A stretch of DNA of 51,689 nucleotides from assembly GCA_903877125.1 (NCBI GenBank), contig CAIRCM010000062.1, forward strand, positions 1-51,689, given 5' to 3'. The translations under genes and the position numbers were made by a program. Below the pieces are notes generated by a model, which was given only the letters and a program-made list of their open reading frames with translations, did no database searches and was not told where the DNA came from. The stretch comes from an uncultured Acetobacteraceae bacterium (GTDB taxonomy: Bacteria; Pseudomonadota; Alphaproteobacteria; Acetobacterales; Acetobacteraceae). Shown piece by piece: positions 1,895 through 26,243 of this stretch (its first letter is position 1; the number at the start of each line of letters is the position of its first letter).

Positions 1895-4015
1895 GTGCGA
1901 GACAACGTCGCTGGCAACCTCACCGCCGGTGTCGGCGCCGGCCTCACTTACCTCCCGCTGATGGTTATCGTCGCGATCATCGCGTTCGGCCCGTTGGGGC
2001 CAGACACCGCCGCCACGCTGACCAGCGCCGTGTTCGCGGCCAACATCGCCGCCGGGATCATGTTTTTCCTGTTGGCGCGCTGCCCTGTCCTTGTAGGAAC
2101 CCCAAGCGCGTCGTCGGCTCTGGTGATCGCCGCTTTGTTCGCGCGCTTGATCGCCCAGGGAACCATTCCCGGGGTGGCCGAGGCGATGGCGATCACCATT
2201 TCGGTCGGGGTCGTCGCAGCCATCGTGCAGCTCGCTTTGGTCAATGCCGGTGCGGCCGCGTTGGGGCCGCTGGCGCCGTACCCGATTGTGTCCGGCCTGG
2301 TGAACGGCACCGCCGTGCTGATCCTGATGTCGCAGCTTCCACCGTTACGCGTCCACCCGTTTGAGATGGCCATCGCCGCCGTCGCCTGCGCGACGATGCT
2401 GCTGTTCCCGGTGCGCTGGAAAGTGCCGCCGGTTTTGCCGGCGGTGGCCGCCGGAATGGCCGTCGCGGCCGTGCTGCACCGGCTGGGCCTGGAACCGGGT
2501 CCCTATCTGACCGCCATGCCGTCCCCAGCGGCCTATCCCGCCGTTGCGGCTCACGGTTTTACCGCCTGGGCCACAAACGCTGCGAAACTCCCATGGGCGG
2601 ACATCGCCATTGCCGGGGTGACCATCGCTTTGCTGGGCGTGCTGGAGACCCTCGGGACCATCAGCGCCCTGACCGATCTGGGCATCGTCACTGGGGCGCG
2701 TCGTGATCTGGCGACCGTCGGTTACGCCAATCTCGCGGTTGCCGCCGTTGGTGGCGGTCCGCCGGTTGGGGCGCCGCTGTCCGGTCCCATGACCCCGTTG
2801 AAAACCGGCGGCTCCGGCCGCCTCGCACCGCTGAGCAGGGTCGCCCCGATCGCCGTGGGCGGGGTGTTTCTGGGTGGCTATCTGCCGCTGGTCCCGCAGG
2901 GCGCCATGGTGGGGCTGGTGCTGGCCATCGGCTACCGGCTACTGGACCCTGAACCGGTGCGGCTGCTGTGGCGGGCCGTGCGTCATGACGCGCCGATCCG
3001 CATGGAGATCGGCGGCAGCGCCTTCATCTCCCTGGCCGTGGTCGGTGTCGCCGTGGTCGCGGGCCTCGCCGTCGCGGTCGCCGTGGGTGCGGCCGCCTGT
3101 CTGCTGGTGTTCACCGCCGCGATGGCCGGCAGCGCCATCCACCGGGTCTACGACGGCGCTGCCGCTTTGTCCCGGATGCGCCGCAGCGTGGAGGAAACCG
3201 CCGTCCTGCTGCGGGATCGCAAGCTGGTGTCGGTCATCGAGCTCGGCGGGCCGTTGTTCTTCGGTAATATCAGCCCATTGGGCGACGCGCTTGACCGCGC
3301 CCAGGCCGCCGGTGCCAGGCACATCGTGGTAGACTTGAGCCGTGTGACCCGCGTCGACCTATCCGGGGCGCGCCGATTGATCTCCTACGTGCGGCAACGC
3401 CGGCAGAAGGGGCTGACCATCGTCCTCGCCCCGTTCCATCCCGGCCATCCGGTCGCCGATTATTTCGCTGCATTGGCGATCGATCCCGGCGAGCATTATC
3501 CCGAGGTCACCGAAGCCCTGGCCGCCGCGGAAAATGCGGTGCTGGCGGAGGCCGGCCTGCCTGCTCCGTCCTTCGCGACCAGCGAAGCAGCGTTGGAAGC
3601 CCTCGGCATCGCACCCGACCACGCTCGGGTGTTGGCGACGCATGCGGAAGCCCGGGAATTCGCGGCCAACGAGATGCTGTGCCGAGCGGGGGAGCCGGCG
3701 GACGCTCTGTTCGTGGTGATGCATGGGCGGGTGGATGTCCTGCTGCCCGCCCAACGCGTCGTGCTGGCGCATCTGGCGGCCGGCGCGGTGATCGGGGAGC
3801 GGGTGCTGTTCGAAGCCGGCACCCGCACCGCCGACGTGGTCTGCGCCGCGCCGTCCCGCGTGCTGATCCTGTCCGGTTCCGCGCTGACAGGTTTGATGCG
3901 GGATGCCTCGCCCGCTGCTTTGGCCCTGGTCGTGGCCGTCGCCCACAACACCTCCATGAGTTTGCAACTGGCGAACGCGGCGATCTCCCGACTGGAAACC
4001 CACGCGGATCATTAG
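1895..4015 (+). CDS. SulP-family anion transporter with STAS and cyclic-nucleotide-binding domains
   Basis: This 706-residue inner-membrane protein has a SulP permease of about 10-12 helices (residues about 8-420), a STAS domain (about 440-550, with the DLSRVTRVDLSGARRL turn) and a C-terminal cNMP-binding domain (about 565-700). The phosphate-binding cassette of the last domain reads GERVLFEAGTRTADV, keeping the glycine-glutamate pair and the arginine that contact the cyclic phosphate. SulP proteins move sulfate, bicarbonate or dicarboxylates, and the substrate here cannot be told. The frame is open far upstream, but that part is out-of-frame noise inside the preceding gene. I chose GTG 1895, just after the upstream stop, because it begins the amphipathic lead into helix 1. 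It probably shares a transcript with its neighbours. The fused cNMP domain suggests gating by cAMP, perhaps made by the cyclase at 17685-18923. Confidence 0.88.
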   Translation: MRDNVAGNLTAGVGAGLTYLPLMVIVAIIAFGPLGPDTAATLTSAVFAANIAAGIMFFLLARCPVLVGTPSASSALVIAALFARLIAQGTIPGVAEAMAITISVGVVAAIVQLALVNAGAAALGPLAPYPIVSGLVNGTAVLILMSQLPPLRVHPFEMAIAAVACATMLLFPVRWKVPPVLPAVAAGMAVAAVLHRLGLEPGPYLTAMPSPAAYPAVAAHGFTAWATNAAKLPWADIAIAGVTIALLGVLETLGTISALTDLGIVTGARRDLATVGYANLAVAAVGGGPPVGAPLSGPMTPLKTGGSGRLAPLSRVAPIAVGGVFLGGYLPLVPQGAMVGLVLAIGYRLLDPEPVRLLWRAVRHDAPIRMEIGGSAFISLAVVGVAVVAGLAVAVAVGAAACLLVFTAAMAGSAIHRVYDGAAALSRMRRSVEETAVLLRDRKLVSVIELGGPLFFGNISPLGDALDRAQAAGARHIVVDLSRVTRVDLSGARRLISYVRQRRQKGLTIVLAPFHPGHPVADYFAALAIDPGEHYPEVTEALAAAENAVLAEAGLPAPSFATSEAALEALGIAPDHARVLATHAEAREFAANEMLCRAGEPADALFVVMHGRVDVLLPAQRVVLAHLAAGAVIGERVLFEAGTRTADVVCAAPSRVLILSGSALTGLMRDASPAALALVVAVAHNTSMSLQLANAAISRLETHADH

Positions 4016-4026
4016 AGGGGCAACTC

Positions 4027-4647
4027 ATGTGGCCGGATATTCTCGCCTACATTGCGATCGCTGTGTCGCTGTTCGCCTATGCCATGGACGGAATGATCGC
4101 GCTTCGGCTGATCGGGCTCGTATCCAGCGTCGTGTTCCTGGTGCACGGCGTCATCACCGTCAGCTATCCCACGATCGTCGAGCAGGCGCTGATCCTGCCG
4201 GTCAATGCCTACGGCCTGTTCAAGATGCTGCGGTTGGTTCGCCAGTCGCGGGAGGCCGTGGAAGGCCACCAGACCATGGAATGGTTGCGGCCATTCTCGT
4301 CGCGTCTGTCGATCCCCGCTGGCCAGATATTGTTCCGTCAGGGCGACGCGGCCGAAGACATGTACTGCATCCATTCCGGATCGTTCCGCTTGGCGGAGTC
4401 CGGATTACTGTTGGGGCCGGGTGCCGTGGTCGGGGAGTTGGGTTTTCTGTCGCCGGGCAACCGCCGCACGCAGACCTTGCAGTGCGAGGAACCCGGTGTA
4501 CTTCTTCGTATTTCCTACGACCGGCTGAAGGAACTGTACTTCCAGAACCCAAAATTCGGATTTTACTTCTTGCGCCTGATCAGCAGCCGGCTGTTCGAAA
4601 ACCACGCGGCGGCAGTGGAAGCCGCCTCAGCCCGCGCCAACGGTTAG
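4027..4647 (+). CDS. Small membrane protein with cyclic-nucleotide-binding domain
   Basis: This 206-residue protein has three short hydrophobic segments in residues 3-75 (for example YIAIAVSLFAYAMDGMIALR) followed by a Crp-type cNMP-binding beta-roll (about 90-195) and no DNA-binding helix-turn-helix. The cassette reads GELGFLSPGNRRTQTL. The key glutamate and arginine are kept, but the usual alanine after the arginine is glutamine, so nucleotide affinity may differ. The protein resembles POPDC-like small cNMP-binding membrane proteins, with no enzymatic domain. The ATG follows AGAGGGG by a few bases and lies 11 bases after the SulP stop, so the two are almost certainly co-transcribed. A role as cAMP receptor or partner of the transporter is inference. 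Confidence 0.82.
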   Translation: MWPDILAYIAIAVSLFAYAMDGMIALRLIGLVSSVVFLVHGVITVSYPTIVEQALILPVNAYGLFKMLRLVRQSREAVEGHQTMEWLRPFSSRLSIPAGQILFRQGDAAEDMYCIHSGSFRLAESGLLLGPGAVVGELGFLSPGNRRTQTLQCEEPGVLLRISYDRLKELYFQNPKFGFYFLRLISSRLFENHAAAVEAASARANG

Positions 4648-5472
4648 TATCATGCCTTCCATCGCCGCGATGGTACCGGGACGCCGAGCGGCGGCATCGC
4701 GCACGATCGTATCCATGGTGGCATCGTCGTGGTTGGGTTCGTGGTGGAACAACACCAACTGCCCCACGCCGGCCGTATCGGCGAGCGCCACAGCGGCTTG
4801 CCAAGTCGAATGACCCCAACCGACTCGGGTCACGTATTCGTCTTCGGTAAAGCTGGCATCGTAGATCAGCACATCCGTTCCGGTCACGAATTGCGCCAGC
4901 GCGGTGTCGGTTCCCTCGGCCGGATGTTCGGTATCCGTGATGTAACAGACGTTGTGCCCGCCCCACGCGATGCGTTACCCGACGGCATTGCCGGGGTGGC
5001 GCAGCAGAATCGTTCTGACAGTCAATCCGGGGTGCGGTGTCAGATCCTGTCCTGGTATGAAGTCCTGAAACGACAACACCGCCCGGAATGCTTTGTGAAT
5101 GTCCGGCATCACCGGCGCCTCCCAACTGCGCAGCAGGGCGTCGTGAATGCGATCGACATGCCCGCCCCAAAAACGCAGGCGTGCGCGTGGATCATACATC
5201 GGGCCGAAAAATGGCAGGCCGCAGACATGATCGAAATGCGTGTGGCTGAGCAGAATATCGGCATCTGCCGGACCGGCTAGCGCCGCTCCCATTTCCCGGG
5301 CGCCGCTGCCGGCGTCCAAAATCAGCAGATGCGGGCCGCAGCGCAGCTCCACGCACAGCGTGTTGCCGCCATAACGCAACGTCCCCGGCCCGGGCGTGGG
5401 CAAACTGCCGCGCGCGCCCCAAAAACGCAGGGTCATGGAATCGTCGTTCGTCACCAGATCGCGCTCTGTCAT
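4627..5472 (-). pseudogene. Metallo-beta-lactamase-fold hydrolase (PhnP/cyclic phosphodiesterase-like), interrupted by TAA
   Basis: The frame starts at ATG 5472 or, more like the family, ATG 5436 (MTLRFWGARGSLPTPGPG). It has the metal-binding HTHFDH motif, a later Asp in IYDASF and a final His in HHEPNHDD. These fit RNase Z/PhnP-like MBL enzymes that cleave cyclic or ester phosphates. A TAA at 4977-4975 stops the frame after HPGNAVG. The same frame continues with RIAWGGHNVCYITDTEHP, which is the expected next strand with tyrosine normally at the stop, so one base change (TAC or TAT to TAA) explains it. The 3' end overlaps the end of the convergent cNMP gene by 21 bases. If functional, it could be a cyclic-nucleotide phosphodiesterase balancing the nearby cyclase, which is inference only. 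The truncated product would lack later ligands and is probably inactive. Confidence 0.78.
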
Positions 5473-5579
5473 CTGACCATAGCCTAACGTGGACAGCGGC
5501 CGCGGGGCCAGAAGTTTCGTTAGGGACTTGGTGCGGCGGAGAACCGCCTGTAGCTTGTTGCCAGCCTGGGGAGGAACGC

Positions 5580-8500
5580 ATGGACACCGCACCCACAGCC
5601 GACACCGTCGCGGACCTGCGCCGGTTGCTTACCGAGCGGGAAGCGGAACGCGACGCCGCTCGCGCGCAGACCTTGGCGATGGGCGACGTGCTGCGGGCAA
5701 TCGCCGCTTCCCCCGCCGATCCACAACCGGTCTTCGAACTGATCGCGCGGAAAGTGAAGGACCTGTATGGCGCGCACGCCGTCAGCGTCGTTGAACATGA
5801 TGGCGCGTTGTTGCACCAACGCGCGCTGATCGGGCACGAGCCGGAGGCGGCGGCCCGTCTCCTCGCCGCCTTCCCCCGTCCGCCCGGTCCGGACACCGGT
5901 CCCGGGCGGGTCGTGCTGAGCGGGAAGCCGGTCTATGTCCGCGAAATCGACAAAGAAAGCGGCTTCATCGCGGCGGGACGCGCGCTGGGTGCCGGATCTT
6001 ACTTCGGCGTGCCACTGCTGCACGAGGACCGCGTCGTTGGGGTTCTGGGCCTGTGGCGCGCCGATTTCGGCGCGTTCAATGAGGCCCTGGTGGAAATCGC
6101 CAAAGCCTTCGCCCAACAGGCCGTGATCGCCATCGCGGGAGCGAAGACGCTGCGCGAGTTGCGGGAACGGGACGAAGAGAACCGTGCTTTGATCGCGCGG
6201 CAGGAAGCCAGCATCGCGGTGCTGAAGGCAATTGCCGCTTCGCCCGACGATCCCCAGCCGGTGTTCGAACTGATCGCGCGCAAGGCCCGCGAACTCTGTG
6301 GCGCAGCGCAATCGGGTGTGACTGAATACGACGGCGAGGTGGGCTACCTGCGGGCACTGGATGGCTATGATCCCGCGGTTATTGATCGAATGAGGCGTCT
6401 CTACCCCCGGCCTCCCACCCCGGGAACAATCTTCGGGCGCACCATACTGAGCGGACAGATCGTCCATATCCGCGACGTCAGCACGGACCGCGGGCTGGCG
6501 CATACCACACACGACCGGGCGCGAGACCTGGACACCAGATCACTGCTTGGTGTGCCGCTATTACGCGACGGGCGGGCGATCGGCAGCATCGTACTTCGCC
6601 GGACCCAGGTCGGTGGCTTCGACGACAATCAGATCGCACTGGTGCGATCATTCGCAGAGCAGGCGATGATTGCGATCGCCAGCGCGAACTCGCTGCGCGA
6701 ACTGCGCGAACGGACCGCAGAGCTGGCCGAACGCAACAGCGCCTATGGCGAGCGAATCGAGCAGCAGGCGGCGACCATCGACGTGTTGCAGGCGATGTCC
6801 GCTTCGCCCGGCGACGCGCAGCCGGTTCTGGTCGCCATCGCGGGACGGGCCAGGGCGTTCTGCGGGGCGGAGGCCGCGGGGGTTGTCCTGCTGGAAGACG
6901 GATATTTGCATTTACGTACCCATTCGGGCTTCTCGGACGCGGCCGCCGACACCTACGCGGCTGCGTTCCCACGGCCGGTGGACGAAACGACCGTCGCCGG
7001 GCGCGCCATCCTGGCCAGAGCCGCGATGCATGTGCCCGATATCATGGCGGACCCGCGTTATGTGTTGCGGACCATCGGGACGGTCTCGCTCTTCCGGTCT
7101 TCCGCGGCCGTGCCGTTGCTGCGGGACGGTGTGCCGATTGGCGCGATCGGGTTGGCCCGGTCCACGCCCGGTATCTGTTCCGATACCCAGATGGAGTTAC
7201 TGAAAACCTTCGCCGATCAGGCGGTCATCGCGATCACCAGCGCGGAGACTTGGCGCGCGTTGCAAGCCCGCACGGCGGACTTGCGGGAGTCTCTGGAATA
7301 TCAGACCGCCGCGAGCGACGTGCTGAGGATCATCAGCCAACTGACGACCGACATTCAGCCGGTGCTCGACGCGCTGGTTCAGATCGCGGCTCGACTCTGC
7401 GACGCCGAAATGACAGTCATCAATCGCCGCGACGCGCGCATGGCGTGGATGGCCGCCAGCCACGGCTACCCGGAGTCGCTCTGCGCGTATTGGCGGGCCA
7501 CGGGGCCGATTCCCCTGGATCCCGACAGCCCGGTGGTGGCGATGCGGACCCTCATCGAGGGTCAGATCGTGCACATCCATGATGTGTCGGCGGTTCCTGG
7601 CTATCCCACGCCAAATATTGAACTTGGCGGTCTGCGTACCGTCGTTGGCGCGCCATTGCGGCGGGGCGACGAAATCATCGGCATGATCGGCCTCGCGCGC
7701 CAACGGGTCGAACCGTTCACGGAACGGCAGATCGCATTGCTGCAGAATTTCGCGGCCCAGGCGGTGATCGCGATCGAGAACACGCGGCTGCTGACCGAAC
7801 AGCAGGAAGCGCTGGAACGGCAAACCGCGATGGCCGAGGTGTTGCAGGTCATCAACGCCTCGCCGGGGGATTTGACGCCGGTATTCGATGCGATCCTGGA
7901 AAAGGCCCTGCGAATTTGCCAGCCGGCGTTCGGCACACTCCGCGCGTTTGACGGAGAGAGGTCGCATGTTCTCGCCGAGCGCGGGGCGCATGCAGCGTTG
8001 ACCGCGTATCGCGCGCACGATTCCGCTCAAGGTCTTTCGCCGAATTTCAAAAGTATGCTGGAGACACGGCGTCCGTTCCATATGCTGGATATCCGCGAGA
8101 GCGAAGGATACCAGTCCGGGGATTCGAATACCAGGGCCGTTGCCGATCTGGGCGGTGCGCGCACGGTGCTTCTTGTGCCGCTGTTGAAAGAAGGGGTCGT
8201 TGTCGGCAACCTGCAAATCTACCGCCGGGAAGTCCGCGCCTTCACGGATAACGAAATTTCCCTGCTGGAAAACTTCGCCGCCCAGGCGGTCATCGCGATG
8301 GAAAACGCACGGCTGTTGGGAGAATTACGGCAACGCACGGGCGATCTGCAACAATCTCTGGAATATCAGACAGCAACGTCGGACGTTTTGAAAGTCATCA
8401 ACCAAGCCGCGTTCGATACTCAGCCCGTATTCGATAAGATTGTCGAGACCGTCGCGCGGCTATGCGGCGCGGAATTCGCGAATATCACCAATTATGATGG

Positions 8501-11171
8501 CGAGACAAACCGTATAGCGGCGATATTCAGCGGATTGACTGGTTATAACCCACCGCTCGGTGATATCATTCCAGTCAACCGCCAGAGTGTATCCGGCCGG
8601 GCGATCGCCTCGGGGCAAGTCATTCAGATCGAGGACGTTGCCGCCGACCCCGATTTTGCGACGCGCGCAAAGACCAACTCCACCGTCAGCGGCATCGGGA
8701 CCGTTCTGTCGGTGCCGCTGCTGCGCGATGGGGCGGTCATCGGTACAATCAATCTTGGGCGGGGCGAAATGCGCCCGTTTGCCACCGCGCAGATCGATCT
8801 AATTCGTACTTTCGCGGATCAAGCGGTCATCGCCATAGAAAACGCCCGGCTGCTGACCGAGCAACAGGAGGCGCTGGAACAGCAGACCGCAACGGCAGAG
8901 GTGCTGGGGGTCATCAACGCCAATCCCGGCGATCTGGCGCCGGTATTCGAGGCGATCCTGGACAAGGCGCATACGCTGTGTGGCGCCTCCATCGGTTCAC
9001 TGTTTACCTGGGATGGCGAGTTCATGCGCGCGGTCGCAACCCATGGCCAGCCAGCGGACTATGCGGCGCGGCTCGCTCAGGGCTTCCGTGCTTCGGCGGG
9101 AACCGTTGCCGGCGCGCTGGTTGACGGCGCGCGTTTTGTTCATGTGCCGGACATAATGGAGCTCACGCCAGATCCGCGGAGCGTGGCCGGCGCCGCCATC
9201 GCTGGAACCGGGATGCGCACAGTGCTACAGATACCGCTCCGTAAGGAGGGCAATCTGCTGGGCTATATCAGCGCCGCGCGCGCCGAAGTCCGCCCCTTCG
9301 CGGAAAAGGAAATTTCCCTGCTGGAAAATTTCGCCGCCCAGGCGGTCATCGCGATGGAAAACGCGCGGCTGTTGACGGAAACACAGGAGGCGCTGGAACA
9401 GCAGACCGCGACGGCAGAGGTGCTGGGTGTCATCAATGCAAACCCAGGCAACCTGAAGCCGGTATTCGATACGATACTGGAAAAGGCACATGCGCTATGC
9501 GGCGCCTCGATCGGGTCGTTAATTACCTATGATGGCGAGTTCATGCACACGGCGGCGACACGTGGATGGCCAGAAGACTATGTGGCCCATCTTGCTCAAC
9601 CATTCCGCCCGCAGGGGGTCACACGGCAATTGGTCGACGGCGCCCGTTTCTGTCATACACCGGATGTGGCGGCGTTGGCGGAGGACCCTGGAGGTCGTGC
9701 CGCAATCGCCATAAAACGAACCGGAATGCGCACGCTCTTGCAGGTACCGCTTCGGAGGGAGGACACTCTTCTCGGCTATATCAGCGCGGCACGTTTGGAA
9801 GCACGTCCCTTCACGGACAAGGAAATCGCTCTCCTTGAAAGCTTCGCCGCCCAGGCTGTGATAGCGCTGGAGAATGCGCGCCTTCTGAATGAAGTACGCC
9901 AGCGCCAGGAAGAACTCCGCATCACCTTCGAAAACATGGGCGATGGCGTGGCGATGTTCGACGCCGAACCGCGTTTGGTCGCCTGGAACAGCAAATTTCA
10001 GGAAATCTTCGCCGTCCCCTCCGATCTGCTGGAACAACGCAGGACCTACGCTGACTATATCCGCTTCCTCGCAGAACGCGGCGATTACGGGCCCGACACG
10101 GATGCGGAGGAGATGGTGCGCCGCGTCACCGAAAGCACCGGACAGCAGCGCGTCTACGAACGCACCCGACCGGACGGCCGCGTCGTCGAAATCCGCAACA
10201 ATCCGGTGGACGGCGGCGGTTTCGTGTTGATCTTCGCCGACATTACCGAGCGAAAACGCAACGAAGCTGCCATCGCCGCCGCTCGCGACGCGGCCGAGGA
10301 AGCGACCCGCGCCATCGAAGCCGCCTATCGCGACCTGAAAATCGCCCAGGCCAACCTCGTCCAAGCCGAGAAAATGGCTTCGCTCGGCCAACTCACCGCC
10401 GGTATCGCGCACGAAATCAAGAACCCGCTGAATTTCGTCAATAATTTCGCCAATCTGTCGGTGGAATTGTTGGAGGAATTCAAGGAGGCCGCCGCCCCCG
10501 GCCTCGAACACCTCACCGACGACCAGCGGGCCGACGTCGACGATCTCTCAACCATGCTCACCTCCAACCTGAAAAAGATCGAGGAACACGGCAAGCGCGC
10601 CGACGGCATCGTGAGGGCGATGCTGGAACATTCGCGCGGCGCATCGGGCGAACGGCGCGCGGTCGATCTGAACGCGCTGATCGATGAGGCCCTGAACCTC
10701 GCCTACCACGGTGCCCGAGCGCAGGACCAAAGCTTCAACATCACGCTTGAACGCGATTTCGCCGCCGGGATGGCGCCGATCGAGGTCAATCCACAGGACA
10801 TGACCCGCGTATTTCTGAACCTGTTCGGCAACGGCTTCTACGCCGCCAACAAGCGCGCGAAAGCCGGCACCGCATCCGGCTTCGAACCGGCACTGCGGGT
10901 CACGACGATCGACCATGGCGACAGGATCGAGGTTCAGGTCCGCGACAACGGCACCGGCATTCCCGAAGATATCCGCGACAAGTTGTTCGAGCCCTTCTTC
11001 ACCACCAAACCGACCGGCGAAGGCACCGGCCTCGGCCTGTCCATCACGTACGACATCGTCACCAAGCAGCACGGCGGCACGATCGCGGTGGAGAGCACGG
11101 TCGGCGACCACACGACATTCTCGGTCCAGCTCCCGCGCACCATGTTCGCCGACCGTGGAGGACTGGCATGA
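5580..11171 (+). CDS. Giant soluble histidine kinase: eight GAF domains, PAS, HisKA, HATPase
   Basis: The 1863-residue protein has no membrane segment. Eight GAF domains run in tandem (roughly 40-185, 211-367, 397-557, 577-737, 751-911, 931-1087, 1104-1264 and 1279-1437). Each opens with a coiled linker such as ATAEVLGVINANPGD and usually an LCGA helix. A PAS_7-type domain (about 1440-1558, ITFENMGDGVAMFDAEPRL), a dimerisation helix with phospho-acceptor His1611 (GIAHEIKNPLNFV) and a HATPase (about 1731-1858, [25 protein letters not shown]) follow. The ATG has a GGGAGGAA ribosome site. GAF ligands cannot be predicted. The likely partners are the two response regulators at 17291-18923. Eight GAFs is an unusually high number. 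The catalytic half is closely copied in the next gene. Confidence 0.93.
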   Translation: MDTAPTADTVADLRRLLTEREAERDAARAQTLAMGDVLRAIAASPADPQPVFELIARKVKDLYGAHAVSVVEHDGALLHQRALIGHEPEAAARLLAAFPRPPGPDTGPGRVVLSGKPVYVREIDKESGFIAAGRALGAGSYFGVPLLHEDRVVGVLGLWRADFGAFNEALVEIAKAFAQQAVIAIAGAKTLRELRERDEENRALIARQEASIAVLKAIAASPDDPQPVFELIARKARELCGAAQSGVTEYDGEVGYLRALDGYDPAVIDRMRRLYPRPPTPGTIFGRTILSGQIVHIRDVSTDRGLAHTTHDRARDLDTRSLLGVPLLRDGRAIGSIVLRRTQVGGFDDNQIALVRSFAEQAMIAIASANSLRELRERTAELAERNSAYGERIEQQAATIDVLQAMSASPGDAQPVLVAIAGRARAFCGAEAAGVVLLEDGYLHLRTHSGFSDAAADTYAAAFPRPVDETTVAGRAILARAAMHVPDIMADPRYVLRTIGTVSLFRSSAAVPLLRDGVPIGAIGLARSTPGICSDTQMELLKTFADQAVIAITSAETWRALQARTADLRESLEYQTAASDVLRIISQLTTDIQPVLDALVQIAARLCDAEMTVINRRDARMAWMAASHGYPESLCAYWRATGPIPLDPDSPVVAMRTLIEGQIVHIHDVSAVPGYPTPNIELGGLRTVVGAPLRRGDEIIGMIGLARQRVEPFTERQIALLQNFAAQAVIAIENTRLLTEQQEALERQTAMAEVLQVINASPGDLTPVFDAILEKALRICQPAFGTLRAFDGERSHVLAERGAHAALTAYRAHDSAQGLSPNFKSMLETRRPFHMLDIRESEGYQSGDSNTRAVADLGGARTVLLVPLLKEGVVVGNLQIYRREVRAFTDNEISLLENFAAQAVIAMENARLLGELRQRTGDLQQSLEYQTATSDVLKVINQAAFDTQPVFDKIVETVARLCGAEFANITNYDGETNRIAAIFSGLTGYNPPLGDIIPVNRQSVSGRAIASGQVIQIEDVAADPDFATRAKTNSTVSGIGTVLSVPLLRDGAVIGTINLGRGEMRPFATAQIDLIRTFADQAVIAIENARLLTEQQEALEQQTATAEVLGVINANPGDLAPVFEAILDKAHTLCGASIGSLFTWDGEFMRAVATHGQPADYAARLAQGFRASAGTVAGALVDGARFVHVPDIMELTPDPRSVAGAAIAGTGMRTVLQIPLRKEGNLLGYISAARAEVRPFAEKEISLLENFAAQAVIAMENARLLTETQEALEQQTATAEVLGVINANPGNLKPVFDTILEKAHALCGASIGSLITYDGEFMHTAATRGWPEDYVAHLAQPFRPQGVTRQLVDGARFCHTPDVAALAEDPGGRAAIAIKRTGMRTLLQVPLRREDTLLGYISAARLEARPFTDKEIALLESFAAQAVIALENARLLNEVRQRQEELRITFENMGDGVAMFDAEPRLVAWNSKFQEIFAVPSDLLEQRRTYADYIRFLAERGDYGPDTDAEEMVRRVTESTGQQRVYERTRPDGRVVEIRNNPVDGGGFVLIFADITERKRNEAAIAAARDAAEEATRAIEAAYRDLKIAQANLVQAEKMASLGQLTAGIAHEIKNPLNFVNNFANLSVELLEEFKEAAAPGLEHLTDDQRADVDDLSTMLTSNLKKIEEHGKRADGIVRAMLEHSRGASGERRAVDLNALIDEALNLAYHGARAQDQSFNITLERDFAAGMAPIEVNPQDMTRVFLNLFGNGFYAANKRAKAGTASGFEPALRVTTIDHGDRIEVQVRDNGTGIPEDIRDKLFEPFFTTKPTGEGTGLGLSITYDIVTKQHGGTIAVESTVGDHTTFSVQLPRTMFADRGGLA
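9897..11160 (+). repeat. Kinase C-terminal direct repeat, copy 1 (copy 2 at 12343-13606)
   Basis: The DNA encoding PAS, HisKA and HATPase of the giant kinase recurs 2446 bases downstream in the next kinase. Some stretches, such as 10395-10468 against 12841-12914, are base-for-base identical for more than 70 bases. Such conservation, including silent positions, indicates recent duplication or gene conversion. The third kinase (16450-17270) carries a more diverged version without PAS. Recombination between the copies would delete one kinase or swap sensor halves. Confidence 0.85.
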
Positions 11172-11223
11172 ACCGCCCCATCCGCTATCCTGCCCGCAAC
11201 ATGCGCCGGGAGGGAGCGGCCTC

Positions 11224-13617
11224 ATGAGTGACGCGGCCACTCAGCAGGAGTTGGCGGAACTCCGCCAGCAGCGCGACGCGGCCCTGGCGCGCGAGTCGGC
11301 GCTGGCCGAGGTGCTGTCTATCATCAACCGATCCCCCAGCGATCCTGGGCCGGTGTTCCAGGCGATTCTGGAGAAGGCGCACGCGCTGTGCGGGGCGGAA
11401 ATCGGGGCGCTGGCAACCTACGACGGCACGTTCATGCGCGCCGTGGCAGTTCGCGGTCTTTCGGCGGAGCACGCGGCGTTGATAACGGAGCCGTACCGTC
11501 CGAGTCCCGGGGGGATCCAGCGGCTTATTGACGGCGCGCGTTTCAATCAGATCGCCGATATCAAAGCGTCGAATGTGTCCGGTTTTGGCAGAATGTTTGC
11601 GGACCGTACCGGTCTTCAAACCTACCTTGGGGTTCCGCTTCGAAAAGACGGCGTCTTCGTGGGGCAAATCAGCGCCTACCGCACGGAAGTTCGCCCTTTC
11701 ACCGAAAAAGAAATCGCTCTGCTGGAGAGCTTCGCCGCCCAGGCGGTCATCGCGATGGAAAACGCGCGGCTGCTGACGGAATTGCGGGTCCGTGACGAGG
11801 ACAACAGCAGACTCATCGCGAGGCAGTCCGCCAGCATCGAGATTCTCAAGACAATTTCCGCCTCGCCCGACGACCCACAGCCGGTGTTCGAAATGATCGC
11901 CCGCCGGGCACGGGAACTGTGTGGCGCGGAAGCCGCGAGCGTGAGCGAGTTCGACGGCACCATGATGACCATGAGAGTCATGATCGGCCACGATGCCGCG
12001 GCGACGGCCCGGTACATGGCAAGCTTTCCCCGCCCCCCGATCGCCGAATCCTTGCATGGGAGTGTTATTCTCGCCGGGGAGGTCATTCATACCGGCGACA
12101 TCGCCAGCATACCCGCCTGGAGCGCCCTTACCGCCACCAACCTGGGCAATGCGGGCTCCGCGGTGGGGGTTCCGCTGAAGACCGACGGCAAGGTCATTGG
12201 CGCGATCGGCTTGTCCCACACCGATCGCAACGGTTTCGATCGCAACGCGGTGGCGCTTGTGGAGTCCTTCGCCGAACAGGCGGTGATCGCCATATCGAGT
12301 GCCAAGGCCCTGCGCGAACTTCGCGCCCGCACCGACGAACTCGCCCAACGCCAGAGCGAACTGCGTATCACCTTCGAAAATATGGGCGATGGCGTGGCCA
12401 TGTTCGACGCCGAACCGCGCCTGGTCGCCTGGAACGCCAAGTTCCAGGAAATCTTCGCGGTCCCCCCCGGACTTCTGGAACAACGCCAGACCTATGCCGA
12501 CTACATCCGCTTTCTCGCCCAACGCGGCGATTACGGAGCCGATACAGACATCGAGGGACAGGTTCGTCGCATCGCCGGCAACGCCGGCCAGCGTGGCGTT
12601 TATGAGCGCACCCGCCCCGACGGGAGGGTTATCGAGATCCGCAACAATCCGGTGGACGGCGGCGGTTTCGTGTTGATCTTCGGAGACATAACCGAACGAA
12701 GACGCAATGAATACGCCATCGCGGCCGCTCGCGACGCGGCCGAGGAAGCGACCCGCACCATCGAAGCCGCCTATCGCGACCTGAAAATCGCCCAGGCCAA
12801 CCTCGTCCAAGCCGAGAAAATGGCCTCGCTCGGACAGCTCACCGCCGGTATCGCGCACGAAATCAAGAACCCGCTGAATTTCGTCAATAATTTCGCCAAT
12901 CTGTCGGTGGAATTGCTGGAGGAATTCAAGGAAGCCGCCGCCCCCGGCCTCGAACACCTCACCGACGACCAGCGGGCCGATGTCGACGATCTCTCGAACA
13001 TGCTCACCTCCAACCTGAAAAAGATCGAGGAACACGGCAAGCGCGCCGACGGTATCGTCCGGGCCATGCTGGAACATTCGCGCGGCGCATCGGGCGAACG
13101 GCGCGCGATCGATCTGAACGCGCTGATCGATGAGGCCTTGAACCTCGCCTACCACGGCGCCCGCGCGCAGAACCAAAACTTCAATATCACGTTGGAACGC
13201 GATTTCGCACCCGGCCTGCCACCCATCGAGGTCAATCCGCAGGACATGACACGGGTGTTCCTGAACATGTTCACCAACGGCTTCTACGCCGCCAACAAGC
13301 GCGCGAAAGACGCCGCCCCCCCTGGCTTCGAGCCGACGTTACGCGTCGCCACCATCGATCGCGGCGATGCCGTGGAAGTCCAGGTCCGCGACAACGGAAC
13401 CGGCATCCCGCCAGCGATCAGAGACAAGCTGTTCGAACCTTTCTTCACAACGAAACCCACGGGCGAGGGTACCGGCCTCGGCCTGTCCATCACCTACGAC
13501 ATCGTCACAAAGCAGCACGGCGGCACGATCGCGGTGGAAAGCGTCGTCGACGACCACACCACCTTTTCAGTGACACTGCCCCGCCAGATGTTCGGCCCGG
13601 CGGGAGGGGTGGCATGA
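11224..13617 (+). CDS. Soluble histidine kinase: two GAF domains, PAS, HisKA, HATPase
   Basis: This 797-residue paralogue of the preceding kinase has two GAF domains (about 23-186 and 205-363), a PAS_7-type domain (about 374-493), a HisKA helix with His545 in GIAHEIKNPLNFV, and a HATPase (about 665-793) with intact N, G1 and G2 boxes. I start it at ATG 11224, preceded by GGGAGGGA. The same frame is open further upstream, but only inside the previous gene. It lies 52 bases after the giant kinase. From the PAS domain to the end it is nearly identical at DNA level to that kinase, which points to recent duplication or gene conversion. There is no membrane segment, so it should sense cytoplasmic ligands. 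Confidence 0.92.
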   Translation: MSDAATQQELAELRQQRDAALARESALAEVLSIINRSPSDPGPVFQAILEKAHALCGAEIGALATYDGTFMRAVAVRGLSAEHAALITEPYRPSPGGIQRLIDGARFNQIADIKASNVSGFGRMFADRTGLQTYLGVPLRKDGVFVGQISAYRTEVRPFTEKEIALLESFAAQAVIAMENARLLTELRVRDEDNSRLIARQSASIEILKTISASPDDPQPVFEMIARRARELCGAEAASVSEFDGTMMTMRVMIGHDAAATARYMASFPRPPIAESLHGSVILAGEVIHTGDIASIPAWSALTATNLGNAGSAVGVPLKTDGKVIGAIGLSHTDRNGFDRNAVALVESFAEQAVIAISSAKALRELRARTDELAQRQSELRITFENMGDGVAMFDAEPRLVAWNAKFQEIFAVPPGLLEQRQTYADYIRFLAQRGDYGADTDIEGQVRRIAGNAGQRGVYERTRPDGRVIEIRNNPVDGGGFVLIFGDITERRRNEYAIAAARDAAEEATRTIEAAYRDLKIAQANLVQAEKMASLGQLTAGIAHEIKNPLNFVNNFANLSVELLEEFKEAAAPGLEHLTDDQRADVDDLSNMLTSNLKKIEEHGKRADGIVRAMLEHSRGASGERRAIDLNALIDEALNLAYHGARAQNQNFNITLERDFAPGLPPIEVNPQDMTRVFLNMFTNGFYAANKRAKDAAPPGFEPTLRVATIDRGDAVEVQVRDNGTGIPPAIRDKLFEPFFTTKPTGEGTGLGLSITYDIVTKQHGGTIAVESVVDDHTTFSVTLPRQMFGPAGGVA
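12343..13606 (+). repeat. Kinase C-terminal direct repeat, copy 2
   Basis: This is the second copy of the PAS-HisKA-HATPase repeat described at 9897-11160, at a constant offset of 2446 bases. Differences are mostly silent or conservative, and the longest identical run spans the H-box. Confidence 0.85.
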
Positions 13618-13669
13618 CCCCGGCGACCGGTTATTCTACCCACCGGAAACGACCGGAAGGGGCCGCCCC

Positions 13670-16600
13670 ATGAACGCCGCGTCTGACGCCGATCCGCTGC
13701 GGGAGCTGGCCGAACTGCGCCGCCAGCGCGACGCGGCAACGGCGCAGACCGCGGCTTTGGGGGAGGTGCTGCGCGCCATCACCGCCTCCCCCGACGATCC
13801 CCAGCCCGTCTTCGAACTGATCGCCCGGCGGGCGCGGGAACTGTGCGGGGCCAACACCGTGACCATCCTGGAATACGACGGCACCCTTGTGCACGTCCGG
13901 GCCATGGTCGGCCATGTGCCGGCAGCGGCCGAGCAGGTCCGACGTACCTCTACCCGCACCCGTTTGACCCGGACGACGCCGTTGGACGCGCCATCGTCGG
14001 CAATGTCACCATCCATCAACGCGACGACCGGGATTTTGTGGCAACACAGCGCCTCCTGGGGGTGCCGTCGGCTTTGTTTGTTCCGCTGCGACGCGATGGC
14101 GGCCCGTCGGCGTTATCGGCCTGGGCCGCGCGCAAACCGGCGGGTTCAGCGACTCCGAGGTCGCGCTTATGGAATCCTTCGCGGAACAAGCCTCCCTGGC
14201 CATGGCCGGCGCCGCGCGGCACCGAGAGCTGCGCGAGTCGCTGGACCAACAAACCGCGACGGCCGAGGTGCTCGGCGTTATCAACGCCAACTCCGGCGAC
14301 CTCGCGCCGGTGTTCGATGCGATCCTGGAGAAGGCGCATGCGCTATGCGGCGTCACCATGGGGGCGCTTCTCACCTTCGACGGGGAATTGCTGGAAGCTG
14401 TGGAAACGCACGGCTACTCCCCAGAAGCTGAAGAAGTCGCGCGCCTCAGGCGACCGCTTTCGACTATCCAGCACGGTTTGTTGCGTGGGGAAGTCATTCA
14501 CATACCCGATATGCGAGAGTACCAGGGCCCATTAGGCGACCTGGGACGCGCATTCGTGGATGCCACCGGTGTCCGATCCTATCTCATGGTGCCATTGCGA
14601 AAGGACGGAACGCTGCTCGGCGCGATCTCGGCGGTTCGCACCGAGGTCCGCCCGTTCGCGGAAAATGAAATCGCGCTGCTGGAAAACTTTGCCGCCCAAG
14701 CGGTGATAGCGATGGAAAACGCCCGCCTGCTCGGCGAACTGCGCGAACGCACCGCCGAACTCGCCGAACGCAACGACGCCTTCGCGGAACGGATCGACCA
14801 TCAGGCCGCGACGATCGATGTGCTGAAGGAAATGTCGGCCTCGCCAGCCGACGCGCAGCCGGTGTTCGATTTGATATGTCGGCAGGCCCGCGATTTGTTG
14901 TTGGACGTCGCGAATGTCGCGTTGTTTGAATATGACGGCGCCCTGGTTCACCTGCGAACAAGCATCGGCCGCGAGCATTTCAACCCCGTGGGGCTCGAGC
15001 ACTATCTGACTGGATGGCCCCGGACACCCGACCGCGGCTCCATCTCGTGCCGGGCCGTTCTGGACGGCGCTATGATCCACATCCGGGACGTCCGGGACGA
15101 GCCCGGCGTCTCCCAGGCGGTGATCGACATCGGTCATCGGGCGCAGATCTCGATTCCATTGATGCGGGATGGACGGGCGATTGGCGCGCTTACCGCGGCC
15201 AGCATGCGCGTCGACGGCATCTCCGGCACCCAGATCGAGCTACTGAAAACCTTCGCGGAACAAGCCGCGATCGCGATCGGCAGCGCGGAGACGTATCGGG
15301 CGTTGCAGAAACGCACGGCCGCGCTGGCGGAACGCAACAGCGAGTTCGGCGAACGGATCGAACAGCAGGCCGCGACCATCGACGTGCTGAAGGTGATGTC
15401 CAGCACCCCGGACGACACGCAACCGGTGTTCAATCAGATCGTGCGACGCGCGAAGGAACTCTGCAACGGACAGACAGCCGCTTTGTTCGAACTGCGCGAC
15501 GGACTGGTGCATCTTCGGGCCATGCACAGTGAAACAAACATGAATGTTCCCGCGTATGCGTCTTACGTTGCGCAATTCCCGATGCAGCCTACGCGAGAAT
15601 CGATCCCGCTCCGTGCGATCCTCGATGGCCACGTCATTCATATTAAGGACATTAAGGCTGAATCGGGATTATCTCCCACGGTTCAGGCATTGATAAAAAC
15701 TCGTACCTACAGATCGCAAGTGGTCGTTCCGTTGATGCGCGATGGCGGGGCAATCGGTGCTGTATCGCTCACCGTCGATGAACCGGGTGGCTTCTCCGAC
15801 TCCCAGGTTGCGTTGCTAGCAACCTTCGCCGAGCAAGCTGTCATCGCGATCGGCAGCGTCGACACTTTCATCGCCCTGCGTGAACGCACCGCCGAACTCA
15901 CCCGTTCCTTGTCCGAGCTGCAAGCCCTGGAAGAAGTGCTGCGCGCGGTCAATTCCTCGCTCGATCTCGACACCGTCCTCGAAACCATCATCAGCCGCGC
16001 CGTCCGCCTGTCCCGCGCCGACGAAGGCATGGTCTACGAATTCGACGAAGCTGCGGGCTACTTCCTGCCCAAATCCGCCTACGGCATGACCGAGGCCCGC
16101 ATTGCCGGCCTCCGCCAACGCCGTATCCGGCTCGGCGAGACCTATCTTGGCCAGTCCGCGCTGGACCGAAAGCCCGTGCATGTCGATGACGTGCAACGAG
16201 ACACCAGCCTCCACGACACCACCGGGTTGCTCGCGGGCATCCACGCCGTGCTGGCGGTGCCATTGCTGAAGGACGACAAAGTCATCGGCGGCCTGGTCAT
16301 CCGCCGCCGCGCTGAGGGTGCATTCGAACCAACGATCGTCACGCTGATGCAAACCTTCGCCGGTCAGTGCGTGTTGGCGATTGAAAACGCCCGCCTGTTC
16401 CAGGAACTCGCCGCCCGTGGAGAGGAGGCCCGCCGAGCACGCCTCGCCGCCGAAACAGCGTTGACCGACCTGCAAAAAGCCCAGGACCGGCTGGTGCAAA
16501 CCGAGAAACTCGCGTCCCTCGGCCAACTCACCGCCGGTATAGCGCACGAAATCAAAAACCCGCTGAATTTCGTCAATAATTTCTCGGATCTGTCGGTCGA

Positions 16601-17294
16601 ACTGCTGAATGAATTGCTGGAAGCCGTGGCGCCCGGCAAACTCGACTTGGCGCCGTCACTGCGGGATGACATCGACGACCTGACCACTACGCTGAAATCC
16701 AACCTGGAGAAAATCGTCCATCACGGCAAGCGCGCCGACGGGATCGTGAAGAGCATGCTGCTTCATTCCCGCACCGGTCCCAGCGAACACCGCCCGATCG
16801 ACGTCAACAACACCATCGAGGAAGCACTGAACCTGGCCTACCACGGTGCTCGGGCGGAAAATCAGCAATTCAATATCACCATGGAAAAAGAACTCGATCC
16901 CAAAGCCGGATCGGTCGATGCCTACCCGCAGGAACTGTTGCGGGTGTTCCTGAACCTGATCGGCAACGGCTTTTACGCCGCACACAAACGGGCGCAGAAA
17001 ACGCCGGGCCTGGAGCCGGTACTGAAGATCGCGACGAAAGACCTGGGCGAACGCGTCGAACTGAAAGTGCGCGACAACGGCACCGGCATCCCGCCCGATA
17101 TGCGGGAGAAGATCTTCGAACCGTTCTTCACCACCAAACCGGCCGGCGAAGGCACCGGCCTCGGTCTGTCCTTGAGCTACGACATCATCGTCAAACAGCA
17201 CGGCGGCCAGGTCAGCGTCGACAGCGAGACCGACGCCTTCACCGAATTTACCGTCACACTGCCGCGCCAAATGGCGAAAGGAGCAACGCGATGA
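13670..17294 (+). pseudogene. Soluble histidine kinase with five GAF domains, two frameshifts in the first GAF
   Basis: ATG 13670 (after GGAAGGGG) starts a third kinase. The frame is lost twice inside GAF 1. Near 13934-13940 the homologous reading moves to YLYPHPFDPDDAVGR in the next frame, and near 14105 it moves again to VGVIGLGRAQTGGFSD, which then stays open to TGA 17292-17294. Both shifts equal the loss of one base, the second probably a G in GGCCCG(G)TCGG. The rest is well conserved: GAF 2-5 (about 14265-14745, 14815-15300, 15380-15870 and 15930-16420), H-box His codon at 16545-16547, and HATPase with DNGTGIP and [18 protein letters not shown]. There is no PAS domain. A shortened kinase could start at ATG 14169 and keep four GAFs. 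The stop overlaps the next start (ATGA), so kinase and regulator are translationally coupled. Confidence 0.82.
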
Positions 17295-17688
17295 CCGTTA
17301 CCGTTCTGATCGTCGACGACGAGCCCGACATCGAAACCATGTTTCGTCAGCATTTCCGCCGGGAAGTGAGACAAGGCCTGTACAGCCTCGATTTCGCGCT
17401 GTCCGGCAAGGAACCCTGGATAAACTCGAAGGCTGCGTCGGCGAAGATATCATTCTGCTGGTGTCCGACATCAACATGCCCGGCATGACGGGCCTGCAAC
17501 TGCTGCCGGTCGTAAAGGAACGTCGTCCCAATTTGCCGGTGTTCATGATCTCCGCCTACGGCGACAAGGACACCGTCGCCACCGCCATGGAATGCGGAGC
17601 CACCAAATTTCTGCCCAAGCCGGTGGACTTTGCCCAGCTCAAGCAGGATGTCGCCGCCGTCATCGCCGAGACCGGAGGGGGCGCATGA
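17291..17688 (+). pseudogene. Single-domain response regulator, frameshifted
   Basis: The gene starts at ATG 17291, overlapping the kinase stop, with VLIVDDEPDIETMFRQHFRR, a normal receiver start with the acidic pair. After ALSGKE the frame is lost near 17420. Reading on in the next frame gives LDKLEGCVGEDIILLVSDIN, the strand ending in the phospho-acceptor Asp, then PVFMISAYGD and the conserved Lys in LPKPVDF, ending at TGA 17686-17688. One missing base (CTGGATAAA should follow GCC or CCC) explains everything. With the base restored it would be a 132-residue receiver-only protein, likely a phosphotransfer partner of the adjacent kinases. The stop overlaps the ATG of the cyclase gene. Confidence 0.85.
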
Positions 17689-18923
17689 CCTCCCGCATTC
17701 TTGTCGTCGACGACGAACCCGATCTGGAGCAACTGATCGTCCAACGCTTCCGCCGGCAGGTCCGCGACGGGTCCTACAGTTTCGTCTTCGCGACAGATGG
17801 CGTGAATGCGCTGGCCGAACTCGATAAAGACCCGACCATCGATATGGTCGTCACCGACATCAATATGCCCCGTATGGATGGACTGACATTACTGAGTGAA
17901 ATTCAGCAACGCGAAAACGGTCTTGCCACCATCATCGTGTCCGCGTACGGCGATATCTCCAATGTCCGCACCGCGATGAACCGCGGCGCCTTCGATTTCG
18001 TCATGAAACCGATCGACTTCGCCGATCTCGATGCGACGATTTCCAAGACCTTGCACAGCCTCGAAATCAACCGAGGGTATCAGCGCAAGCAACAGGAAGC
18101 GGAACGTGCCAAGGCGCAGCTTTCGCGCTATTTCTCACCCAGTCTCGCGGACAGCCTGACGGGCGTGCAACTGGGCGCCGAAAGACGCGTGATCACGTCG
18201 ATGTTCACCGACATCGCCAGCTTCACCACGCTCGCGGAAACCCTGGAACCCAGCCTGATTGGGCCACTGTTGAACGAATATCTGACCGGGATGACCGAAA
18301 TCGTGTTCGATCATGGCGGCACCCTGGTCAAAATCATTGGCGACGCGTTGAATGTGTTGTTCGGCGCGCCGACGGAACAGGAAGACCACGCCGCGCGGTC
18401 CGTCGCCTGCGCCATGGATTTGGACACCTTTGCCGAGGCATTCCGCGGTCGCTGGGCGGAAAAAGGCGTCGCGATGGGCAAAACCCGCATTGGCGTCAAT
18501 ACCGGTTCGGCGTTGGTCGGCAGTTTCGGCGGCGGAAGGTTCTTCGACTACACCGCCTACGGCGACACAATCAACGTCGCCGCGCGTCTGGAAGCAGCCA
18601 ACAAGCAGCTCGGCACCCGCGTCCTCGTCAGCGGCAGCGTTGCGGATCGTATTCCGGACTTCCACGGACGTCCGGTTGGCAACGTCGTGCTGCGCGGACG
18701 TAGCGAGGCTTTGCCAGCGCACGAGCCACTGACCGCGGAACGCCATTCCGATCCGCTGACCGCCGCATACCGGGAGGCCTATCGCAAGGCGGAGGCCTGC
18801 GACCCGGTTGCGTTGCCCGCCTTTGCCGCCTTGTTGGGACAAGACAGCGGCGACGGATTGGTCAGCTTCCATCTGAAGCGCCTGCTGACGGGGCAAACCG
18901 GCGTATCGGTGGCGTTGGACTGA
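17685..18923 (+). CDS. Response regulator fused to class III adenylate cyclase
   Basis: This 412-residue protein has a receiver domain (about 4-120, phospho-acceptor Asp58 in VVTDINMPRMDG, Lys in MKPIDF), a helical linker (about 125-160) and a class III cyclase catalytic domain (about 165-350). Metal ligands are Asp176 (MFTDIASF) and Asp220 (KIIGDAL). Lys216 and Thr290 occupy the two adenine-specifying positions, with Thr as in class IIIb enzymes. Asn297 and Arg301 (GDTINVAARLE) are the transition-state residues. All are present, so it should make cAMP. ATG 17685 overlaps the preceding stop. Phosphorylation by the upstream kinases probably controls cyclase dimerisation. Possible receptors in the window are the cNMP domains at 1895-4647. 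A short tail after 350 shows no clear domain. Confidence 0.93.
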   Translation: MTSRILVVDDEPDLEQLIVQRFRRQVRDGSYSFVFATDGVNALAELDKDPTIDMVVTDINMPRMDGLTLLSEIQQRENGLATIIVSAYGDISNVRTAMNRGAFDFVMKPIDFADLDATISKTLHSLEINRGYQRKQQEAERAKAQLSRYFSPSLADSLTGVQLGAERRVITSMFTDIASFTTLAETLEPSLIGPLLNEYLTGMTEIVFDHGGTLVKIIGDALNVLFGAPTEQEDHAARSVACAMDLDTFAEAFRGRWAEKGVAMGKTRIGVNTGSALVGSFGGGRFFDYTAYGDTINVAARLEAANKQLGTRVLVSGSVADRIPDFHGRPVGNVVLRGRSEALPAHEPLTAERHSDPLTAAYREAYRKAEACDPVALPAFAALLGQDSGDGLVSFHLKRLLTGQTGVSVALD

Positions 18924-18989: not shown

Positions 18990-19469
18990 TCACAGCGCCT
19001 CGGCAATCGCGCTCGGCGTGCGGGCCAAGGCATGGACAAGGTCCGCCCGGCTGACGATGCCAACCAGTGTGCCATCCCGTAAGATCGGCAACCGTTTGAT
19101 GCGGTGATTCATCAGCATATCCGCCATGGCCGCCACCGTCGTCGCCTCGGTCGCCGAAATCGCCGGCGCGACCATCAGGTCCCGAGCACGCTGGTTCTGC
19201 ATACTGATGCACTCCAGAACGCTCGGCGCAACCTCCGTCCCATCCGCCACCAGCGTCAGCCACCATGCGCGTTTCGCCGACATCGTCTGTCCGACAGGCC
19301 GCAGCAAATCGCCCTCGCTGACGACACCAAGCACCCTGCCCTGGTCGTCGCAGACGGGAACCGCGCTTATGTTGTTGTCGCTCAGCAGCCGAGCGATTTC
19401 GGCCACCTTGGCGTCTGGCCCGACCGTCTTCACGTTCGTGGTCATGACATCGGCAGCAGTCAATGGCAT
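18990..19469 (-). CDS. CBS-pair protein
   Basis: This 159-residue soluble protein consists of two CBS motifs (about 7-62 and 95-152). The first ends ISAVPVCDDQGRVLGVVSEGDLL and the second RIKRLPILRDGTLVGIVSRADL. Such pairs bind adenosine nucleotides and act as energy or nucleotide sensors. A central stretch between the motifs (SAKRAWWLTLVADG) is usual in the stand-alone BON-less family. The ATG at 19469 has a near-perfect AAGGAGG site. It converges with the cyclase gene 66 bases away and could be the last gene of the ABC-transporter operon, but a 125-base gap and its own strong ribosome site allow independent expression. No catalytic domain is attached, so its target is unknown. Confidence 0.9.
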   Translation of the reverse strand: MPLTAADVMTTNVKTVGPDAKVAEIARLLSDNNISAVPVCDDQGRVLGVVSEGDLLRPVGQTMSAKRAWWLTLVADGTEVAPSVLECISMQNQRARDLMVAPAISATEATTVAAMADMLMNHRIKRLPILRDGTLVGIVSRADLVHALARTPSAIAEAL

Positions 19470-22549: not shown

Positions 22550-22550
22550 T

Positions 22551-24418: not shown

Positions 24419-24583
24419 CGGCGCGTGTCCTCCCCGTCGTCGAACCCCGATGGGCCGCTTTTCACGGTCGCCATTCGGCCGGACAACGACCCTTGTCCAA
24501 CGCCCAACCCCTGTCAACCGGGCCGATTTACAGCACAGGCACCGCTGCCTATAGTCCCAGCAACAAAAATCGGGAGATGAAAC

Positions 24584-26224: not shown

Positions 26225-26243
26225 CAACGTGGGAGAACTCACC

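Follow-up and report, generated by a model that had tools for sequence, protein, structure and literature searches.

A candidate two-component cyclic AMP relay linked to a SulP transporter with a cyclic nucleotide-binding tail in Acetobacteraceae

The window examined here, a contig of 51,689 nucleotides from an uncultured Acetobacteraceae bacterium (CAIRCM010000062.1), carries at about 0.3-18.9 kb a signalling cluster that includes a SulP-STAS transporter with a C-terminal cyclic nucleotide monophosphate (cNMP)-binding domain (SulP-cNMP), multi-GAF kinases, a stand-alone receiver and a receiver joined to a class III adenylyl cyclase (receiver-cyclase). This arrangement is real, it recurs in rearranged form among relatives, and it is a new variant built of known parts. 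We favor, with a probability of roughly 0.55, the reading that it encodes a two-component cyclic AMP (cAMP) relay whose membrane effector is encoded in the cluster itself: a kinase would act on the receiver-cyclase, whose cAMP would act on SulP, and the sensors would be swappable. A full-text literature search, with most subscription journals outside its coverage, returned no publication describing this combination as judged by title and start of abstract.

To place the cluster among its relatives, we used a sample of 249 genomes drawn evenly from Acetobacteraceae and covering 102 genera. The searches scored the best few candidates per genome at thresholds of our own choosing (1e-40, 1e-60, 1e-12 and 1e-30), and domains of neighboring genes were assigned with hidden Markov models built from these sequences, part of them checked with Pfam. 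SulP-cNMP relatives were detected in 12 genomes (7 genera) at 1e-40 and receiver-cyclases in 19 genomes (11 genera) at 1e-60. Both were present in 10 genomes (hypergeometric 2.7e-11 for the 12-genome SulP set, a value that ignores relatedness) and in 6 of the 102 genera (2.3e-6, likewise ignoring relatedness). A STAS-cNMP profile at 1e-30 identified 20 of the 249 genomes, with a gap in score between hits of at least 310 bits and hits of 210 bits or less. The upper group, hereafter the close set, comprises 15 loci in 13 genomes, 11 of which also have a receiver-cyclase. Outside the family SulP-cNMP is rare: 2 of 385 class-level genomes had it at 1e-40 and 5 of 289 matched the STAS-cNMP profile, the window's own genome being included in both counts.

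In six genomes (G000, G261, G225, G296, G230 and G106) SulP-cNMP and the receiver-cyclase lie in one cluster. G225, G296, G106 and G230 share the order kinase, receiver, receiver-cyclase, SulP-STAS-cNMP, and in each of them the start of the SulP gene overlaps the stop of the receiver-cyclase gene. G261 holds a near-complete window set, rearranged as 12-GAF kinase, receiver, 7-GAF kinase, SulP-STAS-cNMP, metallo-beta-lactamase (MBL) hydrolase on the opposite strand, receiver and receiver-cyclase; here the SulP start overlaps the stop of the 7-GAF kinase. The open reading frame (ORF) of the 12-GAF kinase (L120 10329-17999) is 2557 residues long and still open at the end of the stretch. In a tree of the 15 SulP proteins the linked ones fell into three clades. 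G028 has two copies, of which one groups with the window and the other with G261; the third clade joins G225, G296, G230 and G106 with G300, where the protein next after SulP contains two cyclase-like stretches. A fourth clade, from genus g40, is unlinked. Altogether, a class III cyclase or cyclase-like gene lies next to SulP or in its cluster at 7 of the 15 close loci.

As a control we examined the 14 distant STAS-cNMP loci (210 bits or less). None of the 14 adjoined a receiver-cyclase, several of their contigs ending within a few kb. Another class III cyclase was found in the fetched stretch of four (L231, L233, L235 and L242), adjacent in L233, and two (L230 and L242) had no SulP-domain match. 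G318, a class-level genome scoring 303 bits that was in the alignment and outside the control, had no cyclase match in its stretch. This comparison with other genomes, in co-occurrence, linkage and gene overlaps, indicates that the grouping is not due to chance. An earlier note on this DNA, made from the sequence alone, had proposed a circuit from kinase to cyclase to transporter and had staked it on conserved co-occurrence in Acetobacteraceae, and the six clustered genomes bear it out on that point.

In the window the receiver-cyclase gene is located at 17685..18923 on the plus strand, and its product matches Response_reg and Guanylate_cyc. Class IIIb cyclases are defined by two metal-binding Asp, a substrate-binding Lys, a Thr that replaces the second substrate-binding Asp, and transition-state Asn and Arg. 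All of these were found in the window cyclase, as the earlier note had said of its catalytic residues, and they place it in class IIIb. Across 101 distinct cyclase domains the two metal Asp were present in 101 and 101, Lys in 96, Asn in 100 and Arg in 101, while the Thr position was occupied by Thr in 85, Ser in 9, Ala in 5 and Gly in 2. The best PDB matches of the window cyclase were 1wc0 and 1wc1, which we take to be Spirulina CyaC, with Lys and Thr aligned.

The start of the receiver-cyclase overlaps the stop of the stand-alone receiver gene (17291..17688, plus strand), whose own start overlaps the stop of kinase 3 (13670..17294, plus strand; GAF array, HisKA and HATPase), in both cases as ATGA. 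These overlaps are compatible with the previously proposed coupling of kinase, regulator and cyclase. The overlapping genes encode HisKA plus HATPase on the one hand and receiver domains on the other, which identifies a two-component system. Upstream on the same strand lie kinase 1 (5580..11171; eight GAF, PAS, HisKA and HATPase; 1863 residues) and kinase 2 (11224..13617; two GAF, PAS, HisKA and HATPase; 797 residues). The spacers 3' of kinases 1 and 2 are 52 nt each and the C-terminal parts of the two proteins are near-identical by eye, which suggests that they arose by tandem duplication. Two starts were corrected: 17685 is the best start for the receiver-cyclase, in place of 17592, and kinase 2 starts at 11224.

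To survey this core more widely we fetched, with the receiver-cyclase as query, the best 80 of 547 relatives (the general loci). A kinase was found in 76, the receiver-cyclase fusion in 76 and a GAF domain in 50; kinase, separate receiver and fusion occurred together in 68, so the core is widespread. Two general loci had a SulP gene: L079, whose SulP carries a cNMP domain and of which the G106 locus (L126) is the reverse complement, and L086 (7217-12938, Mesorhizobium sp. LHD-90), where five GAF domains are fused to the cyclase and the SulP-STAS gene that follows is without a cNMP domain. A cNMP gene was present in three (L079, L082 and L095) and an MBL gene in one (L095). At this last locus, in a record titled Bacteroidetes, receiver-cyclase, kinase, cNMP gene and MBL gene lie within 9 kb (9806-18515).

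The SulP-STAS-cNMP gene is at 1895..4015 on the plus strand, has a GTG start and encodes 706 residues. The protein matched TIGR00815 (sulP) at 5.1e-16. Its membrane part alone gave no match to Pfam Sulfate_transp and, by phmmer against the PDB, nothing at E 10. A profile of the 15-member family did reach the PDB, with 6ki1 at 1.5e-36 and 5iof at 1.2e-33, entries that we take to be BicA and SLC26Dg. Like these proteins the window SulP has a homologous membrane domain followed by STAS, which places it in SulP/SLC26; unlike them it has an additional C-terminal cNMP domain (PF00027, 4.1e-16). The phosphate-binding (PBC) residues G, E, L, R, A and D of this domain are invariant in 15 of 15 SulP-cNMP proteins, and PF00027 together with the phosphate-binding Gly-Glu and Arg is found both here and in the neighboring YgjV-type protein. 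The family also differs from BicA at a nearly invariant Glu (E252 of A1), which aligned with a 6ki1 Asp presumed to be Asp258 of the BicA Na+ site. BicA-type bicarbonate transport was considered and is not supported by this residue, as it calls for Asp at the site in transmembrane helix 8 (TM8), where these proteins have Glu; the roles of residues at the site are described in the accessible text of PMC13249358. A predicted structure of the window SulP, made with one other sequence, had a mean predicted local distance difference test score (pLDDT) of 36.7 and was not interpreted.

In the relay that we favor, a ligand would cause a kinase, multi-GAF in the window, to autophosphorylate and pass phosphate to the receiver domain joined to the cyclase. 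The stand-alone receiver may act as a second phosphate target, a buffer or a sink. The phosphorylated class IIIb cyclase would then make cAMP, the presumed messenger, which would bind the C-terminal cNMP domain of SulP-STAS, and also that of the YgjV-type protein, and gate transport in one direction or the other, with a change in flux of the putative anionic substrate. The MBL enzyme would hydrolyze cAMP.

The front half of this relay may work by analogy with cyanobacterial CyaC (Spirulina, Anabaena), in which a kinase likewise drives a class IIIb cyclase linked to a receiver. CyaC is a single chain comprising kinase, two receivers and cyclase, whereas in the window these functions are divided among overlapping genes for kinase, receiver and receiver-cyclase, joined in some genomes by that of the cNMP-tailed transporter. 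A cyanobacterial CyaC is activated by a kinase and stimulated by bicarbonate, according to the accessible text of PMC4284465, and the same stimulation could by extension apply to the present cyclase. A second parallel is SbtA/SbtB of cyanobacterial bicarbonate uptake, where cAMP alters the control of an anion transporter; as described in the accessible part of PMC13249358, a separate PII-like protein binds cAMP there and SbtA is the transporter, whereas here SulP carries its own cNMP domain.

The sensors vary among the linked operons. Those of G106, G225 and G230 open with 4, 6 and 6 ORFs matching an ABC_sub_bind profile (4, 6 and 4 confirmed by Pfam, the outermost ones in G225 and G230 being cut by the stretch), followed by a dCache-HAMP kinase, receiver, receiver-cyclase and SulP-cNMP. 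Among the 80 general loci, 24 have such ORFs as well. At L079 (199-4053), L122 (14456-19984) and L125 (3-5585) they form arrays of four to six, with 4-nt overlaps seen at the joints, that lead directly into the gene of the dCache-HAMP kinase; neither an ABC permease nor an ATPase was noticed within these three arrays, although no search was aimed at such genes. Since three linked operons combine periplasmic binding proteins with dCache-HAMP kinases, the cytosolic ligands of the original proposal hold for the GAF versions only.

The MBL gene (about 4624..5436, minus strand) is divergent from the five-gene plus-strand run of kinases 1, 2 and 3, receiver and receiver-cyclase. Its product looks like an atypical class-II cNMP phosphodiesterase (YhfI, Rv1339, Corynebacterium CpdA) or Apyc1: it shares with them the MBL fold, PF12706 and the [T/S]HxHxDH motif, here SHTHFDH. 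In the accessible text of PMC9293780 this motif and PF12706 mark the atypical class-II enzymes. The window piece matched PF12706 at 3.2e-5, below the cut-off of that model, and two intact relatives also carry the domain. With the intact G261 relative the best PDB match was 6kns (B. subtilis YhfI, 6.7e-6), followed by 7u2s (Apyc1, 0.0036); YhfI prefers cAMP and cGMP over cCMP and cUMP (PMC9117128, accessible part). The MBL protein differs from these enzymes in falling far below the curated cut-off of the NCBI cyclic-nucleotide phosphodiesterase model (42 bits vs 400). MBL relatives were found in 13 of 249 genomes at 1e-40, and in nine of these (the window, G261, G219, G071, G161, G257, G215, G158 and G061) a class III cyclase is in the same stretch or cluster, a context that favors cNMP turnover. 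G028 has SulP-cNMP beside the MBL gene, and in the fetched MBL stretches of G001, G060 and G010 neither a class III cyclase nor SulP-cNMP was seen. Four loci of genus g40 (L185 4877-8147, L186 1-2470, L187 6909-10839 and L190 4052-9197) have a class III cyclase, of CHASE2 type by Pfam in L185, together with an MBL gene, and three of them a small cNMP protein as well; they form another compact locus for making, sensing and destroying cNMP.

The YgjV-type protein (YgjV-cNMP; 4027..4647, plus strand, its ATG 11 nt past the SulP stop) is a small membrane protein that combines the C-terminal half of Imp-YgjV with a cNMP domain (PF00027, 5.1e-16; GE and R visible in the sequence). It occurs in 8 of 249 genomes. 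A TPR-type class III cyclase directly adjoins it in G293 and G076, and none was seen at the other five loci outside the window (G221, G184, G134, G070 and G273). This direct pairing lies at L192 6922-9666 and L193 4027-6874, in two g45 genomes.

Several observations weigh against the proposed relay. SulP lies 13.7 kb from the receiver-cyclase in the window, the MBL gene separating the two runs, and four window genes (TolB-TPR, MBL, kinase 3 and stand-alone receiver) are interrupted as sequenced. None of 32 other genomes of the window's genus examined had a receiver-cyclase at 1e-60. YgjV-cNMP and SulP do not track each other, as they share one genome only (P 0.33), and the suggestion that YgjV-cNMP belongs to a conserved set with SulP is not supported. 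The MBL protein scores higher against RNase Z models than against the cyclic-nucleotide phosphodiesterase model, which leaves its predicted activity uncertain. No class III cyclase was found in the fetched stretch of eight of the 15 close SulP loci, among them each of the five that come from the four g40 genomes, some contigs being short, and SulP-cNMP is missing from 79 of the 80 general loci. This abundance of cores with no SulP-cNMP would also be expected if the core supplied a general pool of cAMP whose main targets are CRP-type regulators, with SulP-cNMP genes that answer to this pool drifting into the operon and SulP as one client among others. On such a view it is natural that SulP-cNMP and the receiver-cyclase are on different contigs or far apart in the four g40 genomes, and that a CRP-like cNMP gene adjoins the core at L082, one general locus. 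We nevertheless consider this explanation unlikely: in four genomes the receiver-cyclase stop and the SulP start overlap, and linkage is found in three clades of SulP, which is more than a shared pool would account for.

A Pycsar-like antiphage system, in which a class III cyclase signals to membrane cNMP proteins, is very improbable. PADLOC Pycsar models did match the cyclase domain (4.4e-21), the SulP cNMP domain (6.2e-13) and YgjV-cNMP (2e-10 or weaker), and the cyclase and YgjV-cNMP pairs of G293 and G076 recall its layout. However, these matches are confined to the shared cyclase and cNMP stretches, where membership calls for a match over the whole cyclase and a dedicated effector, and we set the assignment aside, though no search for a defence island was made; the present cyclase is receiver-linked with the adenylyl-type Lys and Thr, and the main effector is a SulP homologue. 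Closer to even odds, though still short of them, is the possibility that the window cluster is decaying and its circuit no longer works here, the conserved system persisting in relatives. The window has two in-frame stops, at 792-794 in the TolB-TPR gene and as a TAA near 4975 in the MBL gene (a position read through in 12 of 12 other relatives aligned), and frame changes in two further genes, between about 13.93 and 14.10 kb in the first GAF of kinase 3 and near 17.41 kb in the receiver. By comparison, ten ORFs were tested at 20-48 kb: eight have complete or nearly complete Pfam domains, and the other two, with no Pfam domain, are perhaps spurious frames; the damage therefore looks concentrated in the signalling cluster, through either decay or local assembly error. 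In the genus relative G010 (L127 1-3846) the cyclase is reduced to a 79-residue 3' remnant (75% identity) beside transposase-like ORFs, presumably of the IS21 type, with a GAF gene on the other side. Against decay, about 5,000 codons remain open with key residues (kinases 1 and 2, SulP, YgjV-cNMP and receiver-cyclase), and local errors are possible in a draft of 231 contigs. With kinase 3, the receiver and the MBL gene interrupted, a relay in the window would have to rely on kinases 1 and 2 together with the receiver-cyclase, which is intact.

Of the gene set originally described, SulP-cNMP, YgjV-cNMP, two multi-GAF kinases and the receiver-cyclase are intact, while the third kinase, of which an open piece at 14169-17294 (1041 residues) retains four GAF, HisKA and HATPase, the receiver-only regulator and the MBL hydrolase are not. 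The wiring of kinase, cyclase and transporter gains from recurrent linkage, the phosphodiesterase-like MBL protein and the class III cyclases beside YgjV-cNMP, and loses from inputs that are not always cytosolic and from the interrupted genes.

At the left edge of the cluster, the TolB/TPR gene (333..1892, plus strand) abuts the SulP gene; its product is a relative of TPR-type class III cyclases, matching their C-terminal part, and no cyclase domain was found in it. To the right, a minus-strand ORF adjoining the receiver-cyclase (18990-19469) is CBS-domain-like by eye. The region 20534-27806 holds ordinary ABC transporter genes of the oligopeptide type, among them a double ATPase and an OppC-type permease, and, on the opposite strand from these, two family-5 binding proteins.

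In bacteria, cAMP is known above all as a regulator of transcription. If the favored relay is correct, a cAMP-making response regulator whose gene overlaps that of a cNMP-tailed transporter would connect sensing to anion transport by a short path that bypasses transcription, and the small operons of relatives (L079 and L125) make it tractable with few purified proteins. More tentatively, and on balance doubtfully, some Acetobacteraceae may possess self-contained operon cAMP relays with interchangeable front ends, either cytosolic multi-GAF kinases or four to six periplasmic binding proteins with a dCache-HAMP kinase, in which SulP would be gated directly by its own cNMP tail, an MBL phosphodiesterase would serve as off-switch in some genera and the cyclase might itself read bicarbonate, closing an anion feedback loop.

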